DNA of 64,000 nt from Deltaproteobacteria bacterium TMED58 (GTDB lineage Bacteria; Desulfobacterota_D; UBA1144): assembly GCA_002167555.2 (NCBI GenBank), contig NHDL02000003.1, forward strand, positions 75,805 to 139,804. The letters run 5' to 3'. The notes under the pieces were generated by a model. The model was not told the origin of the DNA. It was given only the letters and a program-made list of their open reading frames with translations, and ran no database searches. How positions within the stretch are numbered: position 1 is the stretch's first letter; each line of letters opens with the position of its first letter. The position numbers were made by a program, and so were the translations under genes. Of the stretch, positions 40,351 to 46,528 are shown in pieces.

Positions 40351-41604
40351 CTAATTATTCGTATAAGCTTTTTTAAATCTTTTATATAATAATATTCCCA
40401 CTATAAAGAGAGTAAAAACTGCAAAGATAATTGTTTTTGTCTCCTTAAAAATACCATATTTTCTAAATACCAAATTTATTTCATCTCCCTTGTTAATATT
40501 ACTTATTGAATATGTGGTGTATTCGTCATTAGCCAACTCCGCTATAGGAGAATCTTTTTTAACAAAATTTAAACCCTCAATTGATAAAGAAAGCTTATTC
40601 TCAGGAACTATAATCGTTAAACTAGAAATATTATTAAGAAATACTTTTGATAATTTAGTCGAGAAGAAATTAAGCTCTTTTGCGTATGTTAAAACAACTC
40701 TTCTATTGCCTGGTGGCATAGGAAGAGTATCTGTTACCTTATCTTTAGAGACTATAAAAGTACTCTCACTCCTATGGGGGAAACTTAAATCTGTTACTTC
40801 AGGAAATAATGCATATGAATTTATCTTTCTCTGTTTTTCTGAAAAGTCATTAGTACCAATAAAAATTTCACTAGAATTATTAGAAATATTAAAAATCTCA
40901 GCAACTACTATAGAATTTGAATCTTCATCATAACTTATAATTAAATGCCCAGAATCAAGATTTAAATTTTCATAGTCTTGAGTTGAATCATAAACTACCA
41001 GATCCACAACTTTTTCATATTCGTTAGGTAAAAAATAAAATTTATCAGTTGAATATTCTATTCCATCATAAAAGATTTTTATGCGATATGATATATTCCC
41101 CTCTAGTTTGTCAAAATTAAAATCACCTTTGACAGTTGATACTTTCATCGAGCTTTTAACTTTATCAGCCATTACAAGCTCTAATTCTACTTCTTGGTTA
41201 TCAAGAAATTCTTTAGTACTAAAGCTCTGAACTTTTCCACTTATTTTTACTTTTGAGCCTCGCTTAACCAACTCCTTAGTTCGTTCAATATATTTTAATA
41301 ATTTACTTGCTTCATCTTTATTGACATTTATGTAAGGCATAGGAGGATATCCATCATTAATGGGCATTTTTGCATATTTTTTGTAAATAGATTGTGGATT
41401 TTGAATCCATTGAAGAACTTCTTCCTTAGAGTATTTATCTAAAGAATAATAAAGGTCAGGTCCAACGAACCTCCCTCTTCCTATAACATGACAAGTTATG
41501 CACCTCTTTTCAATAAACACCTTCTCCAAATCCTTCAAATCTTTACTTTGCGAATAAGTCACCACAGGAAATAGCATCAATAATATCAAAAAAATATTTT
41601 TCAT
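40351..41604 (-). CDS. Membrane-anchored monoheme cytochrome c with Ig-like domain
   Basis: From the ATG at 41604 there are 417 residues. The signal peptide is MKNIFLILLMLFPVVTYSQ. A small class I-like cytochrome domain (about 25-100) has heme site CITCH (Cys35, Cys38, His39) and Met80 or Met89 as possible sixth ligand. Next is a beta-rich region resembling a carboxypeptidase-regulatory/Ig-like fold (about 105-190: KISGKVQSF, GDFNFDKL, YRIKIFYDG), a further beta-rich segment, and a C-terminal transmembrane helix (about 388-408) with a basic tail. It is the last gene of the ccm operon, four bases after the microprotein gene. It may be an electron partner or a Ccm substrate with a specific role; function unknown. 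Confidence 0.75.
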   Translation of the reverse strand: MKNIFLILLMLFPVVTYSQSKDLKDLEKVFIEKRCITCHVIGRGRFVGPDLYYSLDKYSKEEVLQWIQNPQSIYKKYAKMPINDGYPPMPYINVNKDEASKLLKYIERTKELVKRGSKVKISGKVQSFSTKEFLDNQEVELELVMADKVKSSMKVSTVKGDFNFDKLEGNISYRIKIFYDGIEYSTDKFYFLPNEYEKVVDLVVYDSTQDYENLNLDSGHLIISYDEDSNSIVVAEIFNISNNSSEIFIGTNDFSEKQRKINSYALFPEVTDLSFPHRSESTFIVSKDKVTDTLPMPPGNRRVVLTYAKELNFFSTKLSKVFLNNISSLTIIVPENKLSLSIEGLNFVKKDSPIAELANDEYTTYSISNINKGDEINLVFRKYGIFKETKTIIFAVFTLFIVGILLYKRFKKAYTNN

Positions 41605-41608
41605 AACT

Positions 41609-41719
41609 TTAAATATCCCAATCAATTTTCTTTATGTCAGATTTATTTACTAGTAGAGGATAAAAAATATAAGATAGAGATAATAAAGTAATTAATATAG
41701 TAATAAAAATTTCCAACAT
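41609..41719 (-). CDS. 36-residue membrane microprotein in the ccm operon (CcmI-N-terminus-like)
   Basis: The ATG at 41719 overlaps the ccmF stop (TAATG) and has a perfect AGGAGG about nine bases upstream. The product is one transmembrane helix (MLEIFITILITLLSLSYIFY) followed by PLLVNKSDIKKIDWDI. The helix ending in P-L-L resembles the first segment of CcmI-type proteins, or a small assembly factor, but similarity is weak. The strong ribosome site and tight packing argue that it is real. A longer frame to 41797 would overlap ccmF and is not used. Confidence 0.65.
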   Translation of the reverse strand: MLEIFITILITLLSLSYIFYPLLVNKSDIKKIDWDI

Positions 41720-43641
41720 TAAATTTTCCTCCTGAACATAATTAGGACACCACCCAGAATTGATACCAAGCTGCCAATCCAAAGAAGTGAAACCCAAGGA
41801 TTAATATATATCTTAAAATTGAATCTACCGTCCTCCATATCATCAATCAGAATAAGATAATAATCTTTTTTTAATGTGTTATATATTGCGACTTCTGTCT
41901 CCTTATTTATCTCCCTATTACCTTCATACTTATATAAATTTTGTTCCGGATATAAATAATAACTACTTCCACTATCTGTAAGCAATAATTTCGCACCCAA
42001 AATATTCTTAGCCTCGCTCTCTTTTTTATAAGTTTCTAGCAGCTTTATATCATAGTCGTTTATTTTCAAACTCTGCCCTGTTGATAAAATAAAATCTGAT
42101 TTTGTCCCATATACAGAAGAAAGCGTTATCCCTATTATAAGTAAAATTATCCCAAAATGAACAAGAAATGAACAATACCTTCTATATCTTTTACTTAGAA
42201 TATCTTTCCATTTTAAGCCTCTTGCTAGCTGTAACTTAAATTCAACAATAATATCTTGGAGAATAACAAAAATTACGAATGAAGATATAAAGAATATTAA
42301 CAAAACCTTAAAATTATCAAAGAACATATAGGCAACGAATGTAGTCAAAATTGATAAAATTACCGGCTTTAAAAGCAACATTAATATCGGAGATAATTTT
42401 CCGGTTTTCCAAGGAATTATTGGCGCAACTGACATTAAGGACATTAGAGCTAATACGTTAGGAAAATTAACTAAGTCATAAAATGTTGGACCAACAAGTA
42501 TCTTTTCTCCAGTAAAAGCCTCAGAAATTATAGGAAAAACTGTACCCAGAAAAACAGTTAAGGTAATTATTAAAAAAAATATATTGTTAAAAATTAAAAA
42601 GTTTTCTTTTGAAAATAATGATACTATATCTTCGTTAGATGAAATTAATTTTTTATTCTTTTGATACATAAAAATTGCAAATACAACTGTTAAAATTATA
42701 AAGACAATAAAATATGGTCCAATACTTGATTGAGCAAAAGAATGTACGGATGATATTAAGCCGCTCCTTGTTATAAAAGTTCCAAAGATTGATAGAAAAA
42801 AGGCAAGAAATATGAGACATATATTCCATCTTCTTAATAAACTTCGTGTTTCTTGAGCCATAGAGGAATGTAGAAATGCTGTCAATGCTAACCAAGGCAT
42901 TAAGGCAACATTTTCAACGGGGTCCCAAGCCCAATAGCCACCCCATCCTAATTCTAAATAAGCCCATCTAGAGCCTAGTAATAGACCTAATGAAAGAAAT
43001 ATCCAACTAAAATATGTCCAATTTTTAGATCGAAGAACCCAATTATCAGTTTTATCTTTCGATATTATAGACCCAAGTGCGAATGCAAAAGGTATAGTGA
43101 GAGCAATATAACCAATATACAAAGTTAATGGATGAATGGCCATATAAAAATTCTGAAGTATAGGATTAAGACCTCTACCATTTAAAGGAATGGCACCTAA
43201 AGTATCAAAAGGACTTTCTACAAACACAATTAGGAAAATAAAAAAAGATAAGATAAAGAGTGATACTGATTCCGACGAAGGGAGTAATGATTTAAAAGGT
43301 TTAGAGAACCTAATAGTTAAAGTATAAAGAGACAATATCCACGACCAAAGAAGAAGTGAGCCTTCTTGGCCTGCCCATAATGCAGCTATAGAATATATAA
43401 AAGATAAGTCGTTACTAATATTCTTAGCAACATATGCATTACTGTAGTCTTTTGTTGTAAGCAAATAGATAAGTACTAAGACTGAAATTGAAAGTAATGC
43501 GAATATAGCTAGAATGGATCTAGTGCCTATCGAAACTAAAAGATTGGATTTCTTTCTTATTCCGACAAAATAAGAGTAGAGGCCTATAAGACCAGCTAAA
43601 AAAGAAATAAAAAGTAGCGTTTCTCCAATATTATTTAACAA
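41719..43641 (-). CDS. ccmF: Cytochrome c heme lyase CcmF
   Basis: Large membrane subunit that attaches heme to apocytochrome in System I. The 640 residues have many transmembrane helices, the WWD domain GWGGYWAWDPVEN (about 228-242), and the conserved histidines: MAIHPLTLYIGY, FLHSSMAQETR, SVHSFAQSS and VHFGIILL. A periplasmic domain precedes the last helix. The start overlaps the ccmE end by 11 bases. CcmF keeps all the hallmark residues, unlike CcmC and CcmE in the same operon. Confidence 0.95.
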   Translation of the reverse strand: MLNNIGETLLFISFLAGLIGLYSYFVGIRKKSNLLVSIGTRSILAIFALLSISVLVLIYLLTTKDYSNAYVAKNISNDLSFIYSIAALWAGQEGSLLLWSWILSLYTLTIRFSKPFKSLLPSSESVSLFILSFFIFLIVFVESPFDTLGAIPLNGRGLNPILQNFYMAIHPLTLYIGYIALTIPFAFALGSIISKDKTDNWVLRSKNWTYFSWIFLSLGLLLGSRWAYLELGWGGYWAWDPVENVALMPWLALTAFLHSSMAQETRSLLRRWNICLIFLAFFLSIFGTFITRSGLISSVHSFAQSSIGPYFIVFIILTVVFAIFMYQKNKKLISSNEDIVSLFSKENFLIFNNIFFLIITLTVFLGTVFPIISEAFTGEKILVGPTFYDLVNFPNVLALMSLMSVAPIIPWKTGKLSPILMLLLKPVILSILTTFVAYMFFDNFKVLLIFFISSFVIFVILQDIIVEFKLQLARGLKWKDILSKRYRRYCSFLVHFGIILLIIGITLSSVYGTKSDFILSTGQSLKINDYDIKLLETYKKESEAKNILGAKLLLTDSGSSYYLYPEQNLYKYEGNREINKETEVAIYNTLKKDYYLILIDDMEDGRFNFKIYINPWVSLLWIGSLVSILGGVLIMFRRKI

Positions 43642-44047
43642 AGCTTACCTTACTTTCTTCATATGCTTCATCTTCGTATTTTGTAGGACATTTAGCAAAT
43701 AATTTATTTGCAATAAAAGTAGTATCAATTAATTCTCCTTCTACTACTGCTTCAATTTCATCAGTAAAAATATCAGGAACCTCCCCTTTGTATTGAACAT
43801 TTATAGTCTTAACTTTATCGGTAATAATAAAGTTAATTGAACCATCCGAATTTTTCTTTATAGACCCCTCTTCCACAATGCCGGATACCCTCAATCTTTT
43901 GAACTTGCTAGATGATTTTTCTGCTAAAGCTTCTGACACAGTTAGGTAATATACGAGAGATGATTCAACAGCTTTATATATTAAAAAAGAAAAGAATAGC
44001 CCTATTATTACAACGAATATTTGAATCTTTTTTTTTGGTGACGCCAT
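43631..44047 (-). CDS. ccmE: Heme chaperone CcmE, Cys-type (C-x3-Y)
   Basis: Periplasmic heme shuttle between CcmC and CcmF. The 138 residues have one N-terminal transmembrane helix (about 9-25) and the OB-fold core (RLRVSGIVEEGSIK, INFIITD). At the heme-attachment site, where most proteins have His in H-x3-Y, this one has Cys120 and Tyr124 in AKCPTKY. Such C-x3-Y CcmE proteins are known from archaea and Desulfovibrio-type Ccm systems that also lack CcmH and CcmG. The ATG overlaps the ccmD stop as TAATG. Confidence 0.93.
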   Translation of the reverse strand: MASPKKKIQIFVVIIGLFFSFLIYKAVESSLVYYLTVSEALAEKSSSKFKRLRVSGIVEEGSIKKNSDGSINFIITDKVKTINVQYKGEVPDIFTDEIEAVVEGELIDTTFIANKLFAKCPTKYEDEAYEESKVSFVK

Positions 44048-44160
44048 TAGTCCTTACCATTTAATCTTCGATTTATATAAACTAGGTATAAAAATAAAAT
44101 AACCCAAAAAGCTATTTGGGAATAAAAAAGGTACTCTAAAGAATCAATAATAAAATTCAT
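44047..44160 (-). CDS. ccmD: CcmD-like small membrane protein
   Basis: Translating this interval gives 37 residues, MNFIIDSLEYLFYSQIAFWV followed by ILFLYLVYINRRLNGKD: one transmembrane helix with a basic cytosolic end, as in CcmD, which stabilises CcmC and helps release holo-CcmE from the ABC module. The position between ccmC (21-base gap) and ccmE (one-base overlap) matches ccmD in System I operons. Identification rests on size, topology and place, because CcmD proteins share little sequence. Confidence 0.8.
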   Translation of the reverse strand: MNFIIDSLEYLFYSQIAFWVILFLYLVYINRRLNGKD

Positions 44161-44181
44161 GATATTTATATTAACTTCCAA

Positions 44182-44811
44182 TTATATTTTATCTAGCTTT
44201 ATTCTCATGTCTAACAAATAAAAATAAAGAAATAAAAATGCAATGAATGTTACTATTAATGTATCCATCATTTCTGGGGCTATTCCCCCGCCTTCTCCGC
44301 CAAAAACAACCGGTGAAATTCCTCTCATAACTCTCACTGAAATGTAAACAATAGGAAGATCAATAAAAGCAATAATTGCAAAAATTGACGAGTATCTTGG
44401 CACTCCAGATTTTTCCGCAAGCTTATGAAAAACAAGATATGTAAAATATAAAATAAAAAGTATTAAAGTAGTCGTAAGTTGTGGATCAGATGTCCACCAT
44501 GTGCCCCAAACTGGCTTAGCCCAAATAGAACCAGAAACTAGCGTAAGAAGGGTGAATAGTGTACCAATTTCTGCATTTATATAAGCCATATTAGACTCAC
44601 TAGGGTTATTGCTTCTTAGATATTTAATCGAATATATAAGGTTCATAGTAAATGCTATAGTAAAAACTAGAACGTATCCCATATGAAAATAGAATATCCT
44701 TTGCACATCCCCCATAATTTTCTCTTTCGGAGCATATATAAAAATCATATATAAGCTAAGTGTCATAAAAATGGAAAATAATAAAAAGGAGTTTTTTCTC
44801 AAAAAAATCAA
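44182..44811 (-). CDS. ccmC: Heme-handling protein CcmC, with substituted WWD and His residues
   Basis: Loads heme on CcmE. The 209 residues make six transmembrane helices. The WWD motif reads WGTWWTSDPQLT (102-113), with Ser108 replacing the third tryptophan and Gln the arginine of WGxWWxWDxRLT. The first conserved ligand histidine is kept (His43 in FYFHMGY). At the second position (after the WWD region, normally R-x-L-H-P) the sequence is RGISPVVFGGEGGGI, with Ser166 where His is expected. Both codons read cleanly in frame. It lies four bases after ccmB. Confidence 0.92.
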   Translation of the reverse strand: MIFLRKNSFLLFSIFMTLSLYMIFIYAPKEKIMGDVQRIFYFHMGYVLVFTIAFTMNLIYSIKYLRSNNPSESNMAYINAEIGTLFTLLTLVSGSIWAKPVWGTWWTSDPQLTTTLILFILYFTYLVFHKLAEKSGVPRYSSIFAIIAFIDLPIVYISVRVMRGISPVVFGGEGGGIAPEMMDTLIVTFIAFLFLYFYLLDMRIKLDKI

Positions 44812-44815
44812 TATA

Positions 44816-45481
44816 TCACCTTCTAATAGAGTAACTAAAAAGAATAGGACAAATAGTCAGTAAAAGTATATCGAATGCAGCCAAAGCTTGCAAAGGAAAG
44901 GATTTAAAAAAGAAAAGGCTATCGGAAATATTGACTAGCATGATTGAACTATATCCAAGTATCAAAAAAGGAAGTATAAGAGGGTAGATTAAGATAAACA
45001 TAAATTGACCTTCTCCTCTTACTCTTTCAAGCATTAGTGAAAATGTAGATAAAATTGATGACAGCCCTAAAGTAAAAAGAAAACATAAAGAGATAAAGTT
45101 AATACCATTGATAAATAAGGGTGTATTTGAAATTAAAGATAGAAATATAAAAACAATAAGATGAATAAATAAGCAAATAATCATAAAAAATAAAATCTTT
45201 GCAAAACAAACTATTGATAGATCGATTGGAGCTGATATAAGTATCAACTCTCCATCTAAGGATATTTCTTGTCTTGAAATTCTTTGGTTTGCAACCAACG
45301 AAGATATTAATGATGTATAAAAAAAGAGCTCTATCAAATTATTAGACCCAATAAAAGTAAAACCAATTAATGATAGACTTATTGCTAAAATAATTACATA
45401 AATTAAATTAAGTTTTTCTCTAAACTCGATTCTAAGATCCTTTTTTAAAATTAAAAAAACAATATCTATAAAATTTCTCAT
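44816..45481 (-). CDS. ccmB: Heme exporter/release ABC permease CcmB
   Basis: Six-helix permease partner of CcmA; ATP hydrolysis by CcmAB frees holo-CcmE from CcmC. The 221 residues start FLILKKDLRIEFREK and include the segment LEGELILISAPID-like (here LDGELILISAPIDLSIV) that is well conserved in CcmB. It lies three bases from ccmA and four from ccmC. Confidence 0.93.
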   Translation of the reverse strand: MRNFIDIVFLILKKDLRIEFREKLNLIYVIILAISLSLIGFTFIGSNNLIELFFYTSLISSLVANQRISRQEISLDGELILISAPIDLSIVCFAKILFFMIICLFIHLIVFIFLSLISNTPLFINGINFISLCFLFTLGLSSILSTFSLMLERVRGEGQFMFILIYPLILPFLILGYSSIMLVNISDSLFFFKSFPLQALAAFDILLLTICPILFSYSIRR

Positions 45482-45484
45482 ATT

Positions 45485-46102
45485 TTACAATTTAACCGAT
45501 TCAAAAAACTCAATGTCCTTAAGTCCAGATGAATTATCTGTTATAAAGAAAGATTTTCCTTTATCTGAACTATTTATAATCAAATTATTTAAAACATTTA
45601 TGGCTTCGGAGTCCAGGTATGTGTATGGCTCATCCAAAATAAAAAAATCTGGGTTAATTAGGAATAATATTAATATTGAAACTTTCTTTTTAGTTCCATC
45701 TGAGAGTTTATATATTTTTTTTGATTTAAAATCATTTAAATTAAAGCTATCAATTAAACTCTCTACTAATTCTACATTTCCTATATTATTTAGTCGTGTA
45801 AAGAAAATTATATTTTCTTTAACTGAAAGGTGTTGATATAAATTTGGCAATGGCGGGAGATAGCTTACCTTGGTGAAATAATAATGGTCCAAATCCTTAA
45901 TATTATCTTTACCTAAAAATATTTCACCACTATAGTCTAAAATCTGTGAAGCGACAATCTTCATTAAAGTTGTCTTACCTGCACCATTAGGGCCTGACAA
46001 ATTATAAATTTTACCAGGGTTAATATTAAAACTTATTAATTTGAAGACAGTAGTGTCATTATAAGATTTACCTATATTTTGAATTGATAAAGAATCCTTC
46101 AT
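45485..46102 (-). CDS. ccmA: Heme-release ABC ATPase CcmA
   Basis: ATPase of the CcmAB module. From the ATG at 46102 there are 205 residues: Walker A GPNGAGKTT (37-45), a degenerate signature LSDGTKKK, and Walker B FFILDEPYTYLD. An alternative start at 46162 would add 20 residues and run into the divergent glyoxalase promoter, so I use the shorter form, which begins MKDSLSIQNIGKSY like other CcmA proteins. It is the first gene of the operon. A weak TAAAGT lies seven bases before the ATG. Confidence 0.92.
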   Translation of the reverse strand: MKDSLSIQNIGKSYNDTTVFKLISFNINPGKIYNLSGPNGAGKTTLMKIVASQILDYSGEIFLGKDNIKDLDHYYFTKVSYLPPLPNLYQHLSVKENIIFFTRLNNIGNVELVESLIDSFNLNDFKSKKIYKLSDGTKKKVSILILFLINPDFFILDEPYTYLDSEAINVLNNLIINSSDKGKSFFITDNSSGLKDIEFFESVKL

Positions 46103-46111
46103 GTTTATAAC

Positions 46112-46140
46112 TTTACTTAATAACAAGTGTAATTTAAAAT
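46112..46140 (+). promoter_or_regulatory. Predicted promoter of the gloA-PTPS pair
   Basis: TTTACT (46112-46117), 17 bases, TAAAAT (46135-46140), then seven bases to the ATG at 46148. There is no ribosome site, so the mRNA is likely leaderless from the second of two adjacent ATG codons (46145 and 46148). Confidence 0.5.
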
Positions 46141-46147
46141 TTGTATG

Positions 46148-46528
46148 ATGAAATTTCTTCATACAATGCTAAGAGTTAGTAATTTAGATGAATCAATTAA
46201 ATTTTATGTTGATATTCTAAAGCTTAAATTGGTCAGAAAAAGTGATTACCCTCATGGAAAATTTACCCTGGCTTTTTTATCCTATGATATAAATGAGGAG
46301 CCCTTTTTAGAGCTAACTTATAATTGGGAAACAGATAATTACAATTTAGGTAATGGTTTTGGTCATATAGCTATAGGGGTGGATGATTTATATTCTACAT
46401 GTGAAGAGATTACTAAAAAAGGTGGTAAAATAACTAGAGAGCCAGGTCCCATGAAAGGTAGCAAGTCACTACTTGCCTTTGTTGAAGACCCCAACGGTTA
46501 TAAAATAGAGCTCTTGCAGAGAACATAA
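46148..46528 (+). CDS. gloA: Glyoxalase I (lactoylglutathione lyase)
   Basis: Converts the methylglyoxal-glutathione hemithioacetal to S-lactoylglutathione. The 126 residues from 46148 begin MKFLHTMLRV, the canonical family start. All four metal ligands line up: His5, Glu55, His73 and Glu121 (as in the Ni-dependent E. coli enzyme with His, Glu, His, Glu). SLLAFVEDPNGYKIELL is the family C-terminus. It implies a thiol such as glutathione in the cell. The stop overlaps the next ATG as TAATG. Confidence 0.95.
   Translation: MKFLHTMLRVSNLDESIKFYVDILKLKLVRKSDYPHGKFTLAFLSYDINEEPFLELTYNWETDNYNLGNGFGHIAIGVDDLYSTCEEITKKGGKITREPGPMKGSKSLLAFVEDPNGYKIELLQRT

Follow-up and report, generated by a model that had tools for sequence, protein, structure and literature searches.

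Serine in place of the second axial histidine of the heme-handling protein CcmC in Dadabacteria

In the phylum Dadabacteria, the heme-handling protein CcmC has a serine at the position of P-His2, the second of its two periplasmic histidine ligands, and this serine is fixed throughout the phylum in a gene under purifying selection. The reading that we prefer, with a probability of roughly 0.5, is a functional System I CcmC whose P-His2 would have given way to serine once, on the Dadabacteria branch, and in which heme would be held by the WWD loop and the first histidine, P-His1, only. The Ser-type protein is, by its sequence, a novel form of CcmC within System I. A targeted text search of the open-licence literature found no report of P-His2 loss in CcmC; a review of 2011 names no CcmC variant for System I* (PMC3601427), and the part of a 2025 survey of 44 organisms that was consulted makes no mention of such a loss (PMC12077264).

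Results

The ccm Operon and Its CcmC

The window, by which is meant the whole stretch of 64,000 nucleotides that was analysed, belongs to a marine Dadabacteria genome of 1.01 Mb (93% complete), a small size that fits the streamlined marine clade of the phylum with its genomes of about 1.22 Mb (PMC8115339). On the minus strand lies a compact operon, ccmABCDEF, which consists of ccmA for the ABC ATPase (45485..46162) and ccmB (44816..45481), ccmC (44182..44811; 209 amino acids, TTG start), a ccmD candidate (44047..44181), ccmE (43631..44047) and ccmF (41719..43641). Just downstream of ccmF, on the same strand, follows a gene for a monoheme cytochrome c domain protein (40351..41625), whose CXXCH motif reads CITCH and which is a likely substrate of the pathway. 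The ccmD candidate, a reading frame of 44 amino acids with one predicted membrane helix, occupies exactly the space left by ccmC and ccmE and overlaps ccmE in the sequence TAATG; it has no match in Pfam, and its candidacy comes from its position and from homologues in relatives with a conserved (Y/H)-L-F-(W/Y) motif. CcmE is of the Cys type, with the motif CPTKY (Cys120 and Tyr124). The initial annotation had stated that CcmF keeps its hallmark residues, and this is correct: the equivalents of E. coli H173, H261, H303 and H491 are all present together with an intact WWD loop.

The CcmC reading frame matches the Pfam family Cytochrom_C_asm (PF01578) at 1.2e-24, which is over the cutoff, and the NCBIfam family ccmC (TIGR01191) at 4.2e-31 with 108 bits, which is below the trusted cutoff of 186 bits. 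Its AlphaFold model has a mean pLDDT of 90 and superimposes on E. coli CcmC (7f02_C) with a Z score of 20.5 and an rmsd of 2.5 over 200 residues; 7f02_C and a second structure, 8ce1_C (Z score 20.1), stand well above the next matches. From homology, fold and context, with the gene located between ccmB and ccmD/ccmE, follows that the frame is a CcmC orthologue, one that departs from the two histidines by which the WWD family is defined. Its predicted function is to bind heme and to load it onto CcmE.

Dadabacteria genomes have one CcmC copy each, with the exception of a single contaminated bin. A canonical CcmC in that bin (G011:C21, L034) was considered as a true second type and rejected: it lies on a short 8-kb contig next to a His-type CcmE, and its motif WWRSVHQQ is nearly identical to that of an actinobacterial OCS155 single-cell genome (L102), so that it is probably contamination. 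In the window genome, the third PF01578 match was likewise rejected as a second CcmC; it is a HemX-like protein that belongs to the Cytochrom_C_asm family, lacks a WWD motif and lies beside prfA (G000:C5:249154-249756; L123:6116-6901 in G000:C5). CcmH is present in all 21 Dadabacteria genomes searched, the copy of the window genome lying outside the window (G000:C4:38176-38490), and no ResB-based System II was found in the 21 relatives searched, where the ResB matches are weak and due to cross-matching, in the window genome with CcmF.

Serine at the P-His2 Position

Concerning the axial ligands, it had been claimed in the initial annotation that the first histidine is present and the second absent, and both claims stand. 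P-His1 is retained as His43 (codon CAT, 44683..44685, minus strand), corresponding to E. coli His60, and the position of P-His2, E. coli His184, is taken by Ser166 (codon TCA, 44314..44316, minus strand). The alignment to the nearest His-type CcmC is gap-free over this site, with RTIHPVLF in the outsiders versus RGISPVVF in Dadabacteria.

The possibility that Ser166 is a lineage trait, also raised in the initial annotation, was evaluated with CcmC from 50-odd Dadabacteria genomes of seven families, from which 50 proteins remained when identical ones were removed, and with 233 proteins from elsewhere. The latter come from E. coli, some 78 named genomes across many phyla, draws from three phyla and plasmid-borne copies; the three even draws were centred on the genomes G060, G072 (Solitalea, Bacteroidota) and G065 (Gemmatimonadota), and one phylum search gave one genome only. 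P-His1 is histidine in all 283 proteins, while the P-His2 position is serine in 50 of 50 Dadabacteria and histidine in 233 of 233 others. Since the comparison is without Desulfovibrio and includes haloarchaeal CcmC in two plasmid-borne copies only, the uniqueness of Ser166 applies to the 233 proteins compared.

The Dadabacteria proteins form one clade (SH-aLRT 100) with one change of label on the tree, and the simplest reading is therefore a single replacement of histidine by serine on the Dadabacteria stem. The invariant serine is encoded by all four TCN codons (TCA, TCC, TCG and TCT), the loop R-G-I-S-P-V-V-F-G around it is almost invariant, and dN/dS of CcmC within the family of the window is 0.02-0.12, with synonymous sites near saturation. 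The single clade, the four codons and the low dN/dS together mean that Ser166 is maintained, and reflects neither decay nor sequencing error. In two genomes of family f3, G017 and G020 (L217 and L218), the serine site reads KRDISP and the WWD loop is one residue longer (WVWWDAQLQ); ccmC is distant from ccmE in the first of these genomes and on a separate contig in the second.

The WWD Loop

The WWD motif of the window CcmC reads WGTWWTSDPQLT, where the first tryptophans and the aspartate are retained and the third tryptophan (E. coli Trp125) is Ser108 (44488..44490, minus strand). The initial annotation had identified this residue correctly and had grouped it with the missing ligand; the latter part fails, because the change is confined to the genus level and the position varies freely elsewhere. 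Within Dadabacteria it is serine in five genomes of the window's genus, threonine in one neighbour and tryptophan in the other 44, and outside the phylum 23 of the 233 proteins, mostly of Bacteroidota, have N, F, G, T or R there, with both histidines kept. The exchange of Trp108 for serine is ordinary variation, separate from the loss of P-His2. Bacteroidota CcmC (L259-L308) display WWD forms such as WTND, WSGD, WNFD, WTFAEP and the longer WYVGTDVWWNFD with both axial histidines constant, which means that the letters of the WWD motif are less universal than the axial histidines.

The glutamine that had been noted in place of the WWD arginine is real, and it is phylum-wide. Gln111 (44479..44481, minus strand) occupies the position of E. 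coli Arg128, which contacts a heme propionate, and glutamine is found here in 50 of 50 Dadabacteria and in 4 of the 233 others; in E. coli, R128A leaves 31% of the activity (PMC9616876). Three CcmC labelled Latescibacterota or Gemmatimonadota (L063, L065 and L069) have WDAQLTLT, with glutamine at the Arg128 position and P-His2 kept, as an independent Arg-to-Gln change.

Residues Specific to Dadabacteria

No histidine other than His43 is invariant in Dadabacteria CcmC, and five of the proteins contain only that one. A second histidine at a shifted position, which the initial annotation had allowed for, was sought and rejected: histidines at 35, 79, 129 and 183 are patchy across the phylum. The replacement ligand named there, Met163, is residue 162, residue 163 being arginine, and the proposal must be abandoned, as this position is methionine in 35 of the 50 Dadabacteria, lysine in 13 and valine in two.

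Met44, Gly45, Tyr156 and Met182 (45 of 49) are fixed or nearly so in Dadabacteria and rare in other CcmC. The pair Met44-Gly45 (44677..44682, minus strand) follows directly after P-His1, and the resulting HMG, invariant in Dadabacteria where other CcmC mostly have Val-Pro (HVP), is a signature of the phylum. The most distinctive of these residues is Met44 (50 of 50 versus 5 of 233), while Tyr156 is found in 50 of 50 Dadabacteria versus about 11% elsewhere. Met181 is present in 49 of 49 Dadabacteria and is common in His-type CcmC too.

CcmE in Other Lineages

Every CcmE recovered from Dadabacteria has the motif CPTKY, and the initial annotation had linked the altered CcmC to a Cys-type CcmE. 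As an explanation, this link finds no support in the data. When CcmC from genomes with a C-x3-Y CcmE and from genomes with a His-type CcmE are aligned, P-His2 is found in both groups and serine in Dadabacteria only; genomes of Chloroflexota (ktedonobacterial and anaerolineal), Zixibacteriota, Gemmatimonadota, Latescibacterota and Bacteroidota, five phyla besides Dadabacteria, combine a Cys-type CcmE with P-His2. Since these lineages keep P-His2, a Cys-type CcmE is not a sufficient cause of its loss, though it may be a permissive condition. Comparison with about 20 other CcmE revealed no Dadabacteria-specific His, Met or Cys besides Cys120. To our knowledge, archaeal CcmE is described as universally C-x3-Y; a protein annotated as CcmE on a Natronorubrum bangense plasmid (L255:1646-2101) has the heme-site region VRAHEGEH, with no clear C-x3-Y.

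Discussion

In the mechanism that we favour, P-His2 would have been replaced by serine once, on the branch to Dadabacteria, and the serine retained from then on. Heme would reach the periplasmic WWD site and be held there by the WWD loop and His43 only, which is the least certain step. The sixth coordination site would then be empty, or have its ligand from solvent or from the arriving CcmE, e.g., from Tyr124, and Cys120 of CcmE would add to a heme vinyl. The known enzyme itself has a state in which one histidine binds heme: cryo-EM of E. coli CcmABCD (PMC9616876; also PMC10457321) shows H60 as the only ligand, and H184 on a flexible loop, too far from the heme. At the same time, E. coli CcmC with H184A yields no holoCcmE and no cytochrome c (Table 1 of PMC9616876), and H60A also abolishes holoCcmE (PMC9616876). 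From the first of these results follows that compensation is implied in Dadabacteria, and it was probably provided by co-fixed changes near the site, i.e., Met44-Gly45, Gln111 for arginine and the RxISPVVFG-like loop.

What speaks against a mono-histidine site is that invariant candidates for a sixth ligand, Met44, Tyr156 and Met181, exist in Dadabacteria CcmC. The main rival would be a takeover by another side chain of CcmC or CcmD, not a histidine, which would serve as the second axial ligand and keep the site six-coordinate, with a His/Met, His/Tyr or similar pair. The candidates are Met44 and Tyr156, both invariant in the phylum and uncommon outside it, Met181 or Met182, and a tyrosine of the CcmD candidate that is kept in nearly all recovered copies, but each meets a difficulty: Met44 adjoins His43 in the chain, which by steric reasoning makes the opposite heme face unlikely for it; Met181 is shared with His-type CcmC; one relative has histidine for the CcmD tyrosine, and no CcmD was recovered beside ccmC in family f4; and Met162 is not conserved. 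We regard such a ligand takeover as rather unlikely, though worth keeping in mind. It is improbable that the Cys-type CcmE (System I*) has by itself removed the need for P-His2, by forming its thioether without bis-histidine heme, with Dadabacteria CcmC reflecting that; the uniform CPTKY of the sampled Dadabacteria CcmE would fit, but the many other Cys-type lineages keep P-His2 with no exception in the sample.

A further alternative is that Ser166 itself does the work of P-His2, either by positioning a water or hydroxide ligand or in a structural role, for instance through a hydrogen bond to the WWD aspartate; AlphaFold suggested such a bond between H184 and D126 in E. coli (PMC10457321). That the serine is invariant while its codon drifts, and that no stretch of Dadabacteria CcmC is more invariant than the flanking loop, would agree with this, but serine is not a usual heme ligand, and we consider the alternative very improbable. 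Hardly credible is, finally, that CcmC is degenerating or non-functional in Dadabacteria, or that the residue stems from an error of sequencing or assembly. The streamlining of the window's genus to about 1.0 Mb (PMC8115339) could be cited in favour of decay, but about 50 independent assemblies, 0.8-4 Mb in size, share this serine, purifying selection is strong, the operon and CcmF are intact and a CXXCH substrate adjoins them, so that this explanation is already contradicted by the data.

Compared with E. coli CcmC (PDB 7f02, 7f04 and 8ce1), Dadabacteria CcmC agrees in fold, operon context, P-His1, the partners CcmE and CcmF and, save for the genus-level change at Trp108, the WWD loop of the window protein; it differs in having Ser for His184, Gln for Arg128 and Met-Gly for Val61-Pro62, at about 24% identity. 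With System I* of Desulfovibrio and archaea (PMC3601427, PMC9084895) it shares a CcmE with cysteine in the C-x3-Y motif, but Dadabacteria have CcmH elsewhere in the genome, whereas System I* is marked by its absence, a feature that is not strict (PMC3601427). The Cys-type lineages sampled, Desulfovibrio not among them, differ from Dadabacteria in keeping P-His2. Bacteroidota CcmC resemble the window protein in their noncanonical WWD (third Trp to N, T, F or G), yet keep both axial histidines in all cases sampled. CcmF and CcsBA share with CcmC the four-helix core and the WWD loop, and both retain P-His1 and P-His2.

Kranz and colleagues describe two periplasmic histidines for each of the three WWD family members (PMC10663686). 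The pair counts as universal in the CcmC/CcmF/CcsA family, and Dadabacteria are an apparent exception or a case of ligand takeover. Current models for how holoCcmE is loaded and released include a movement of the P-His2 loop, to which a function in release has been ascribed (PMC10663686). Our tentative proposal is that System I may operate in Dadabacteria through a mono-histidine CcmC, where the incoming CcmE would give the sixth ligand directly and the switching of P-His2 in and out would be dispensable. In E. coli there is a tension between heme bound on P-His1 alone and the dead H184A variant, and a phylum in which P-His2 is replaced constitutes a natural test of the role of that histidine. 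Dadabacteria also provide a list of candidate compensating changes, Met44-Gly45, Gln111 and the ISPVVFG loop, which could be transferred to the Ccm system of E. coli.
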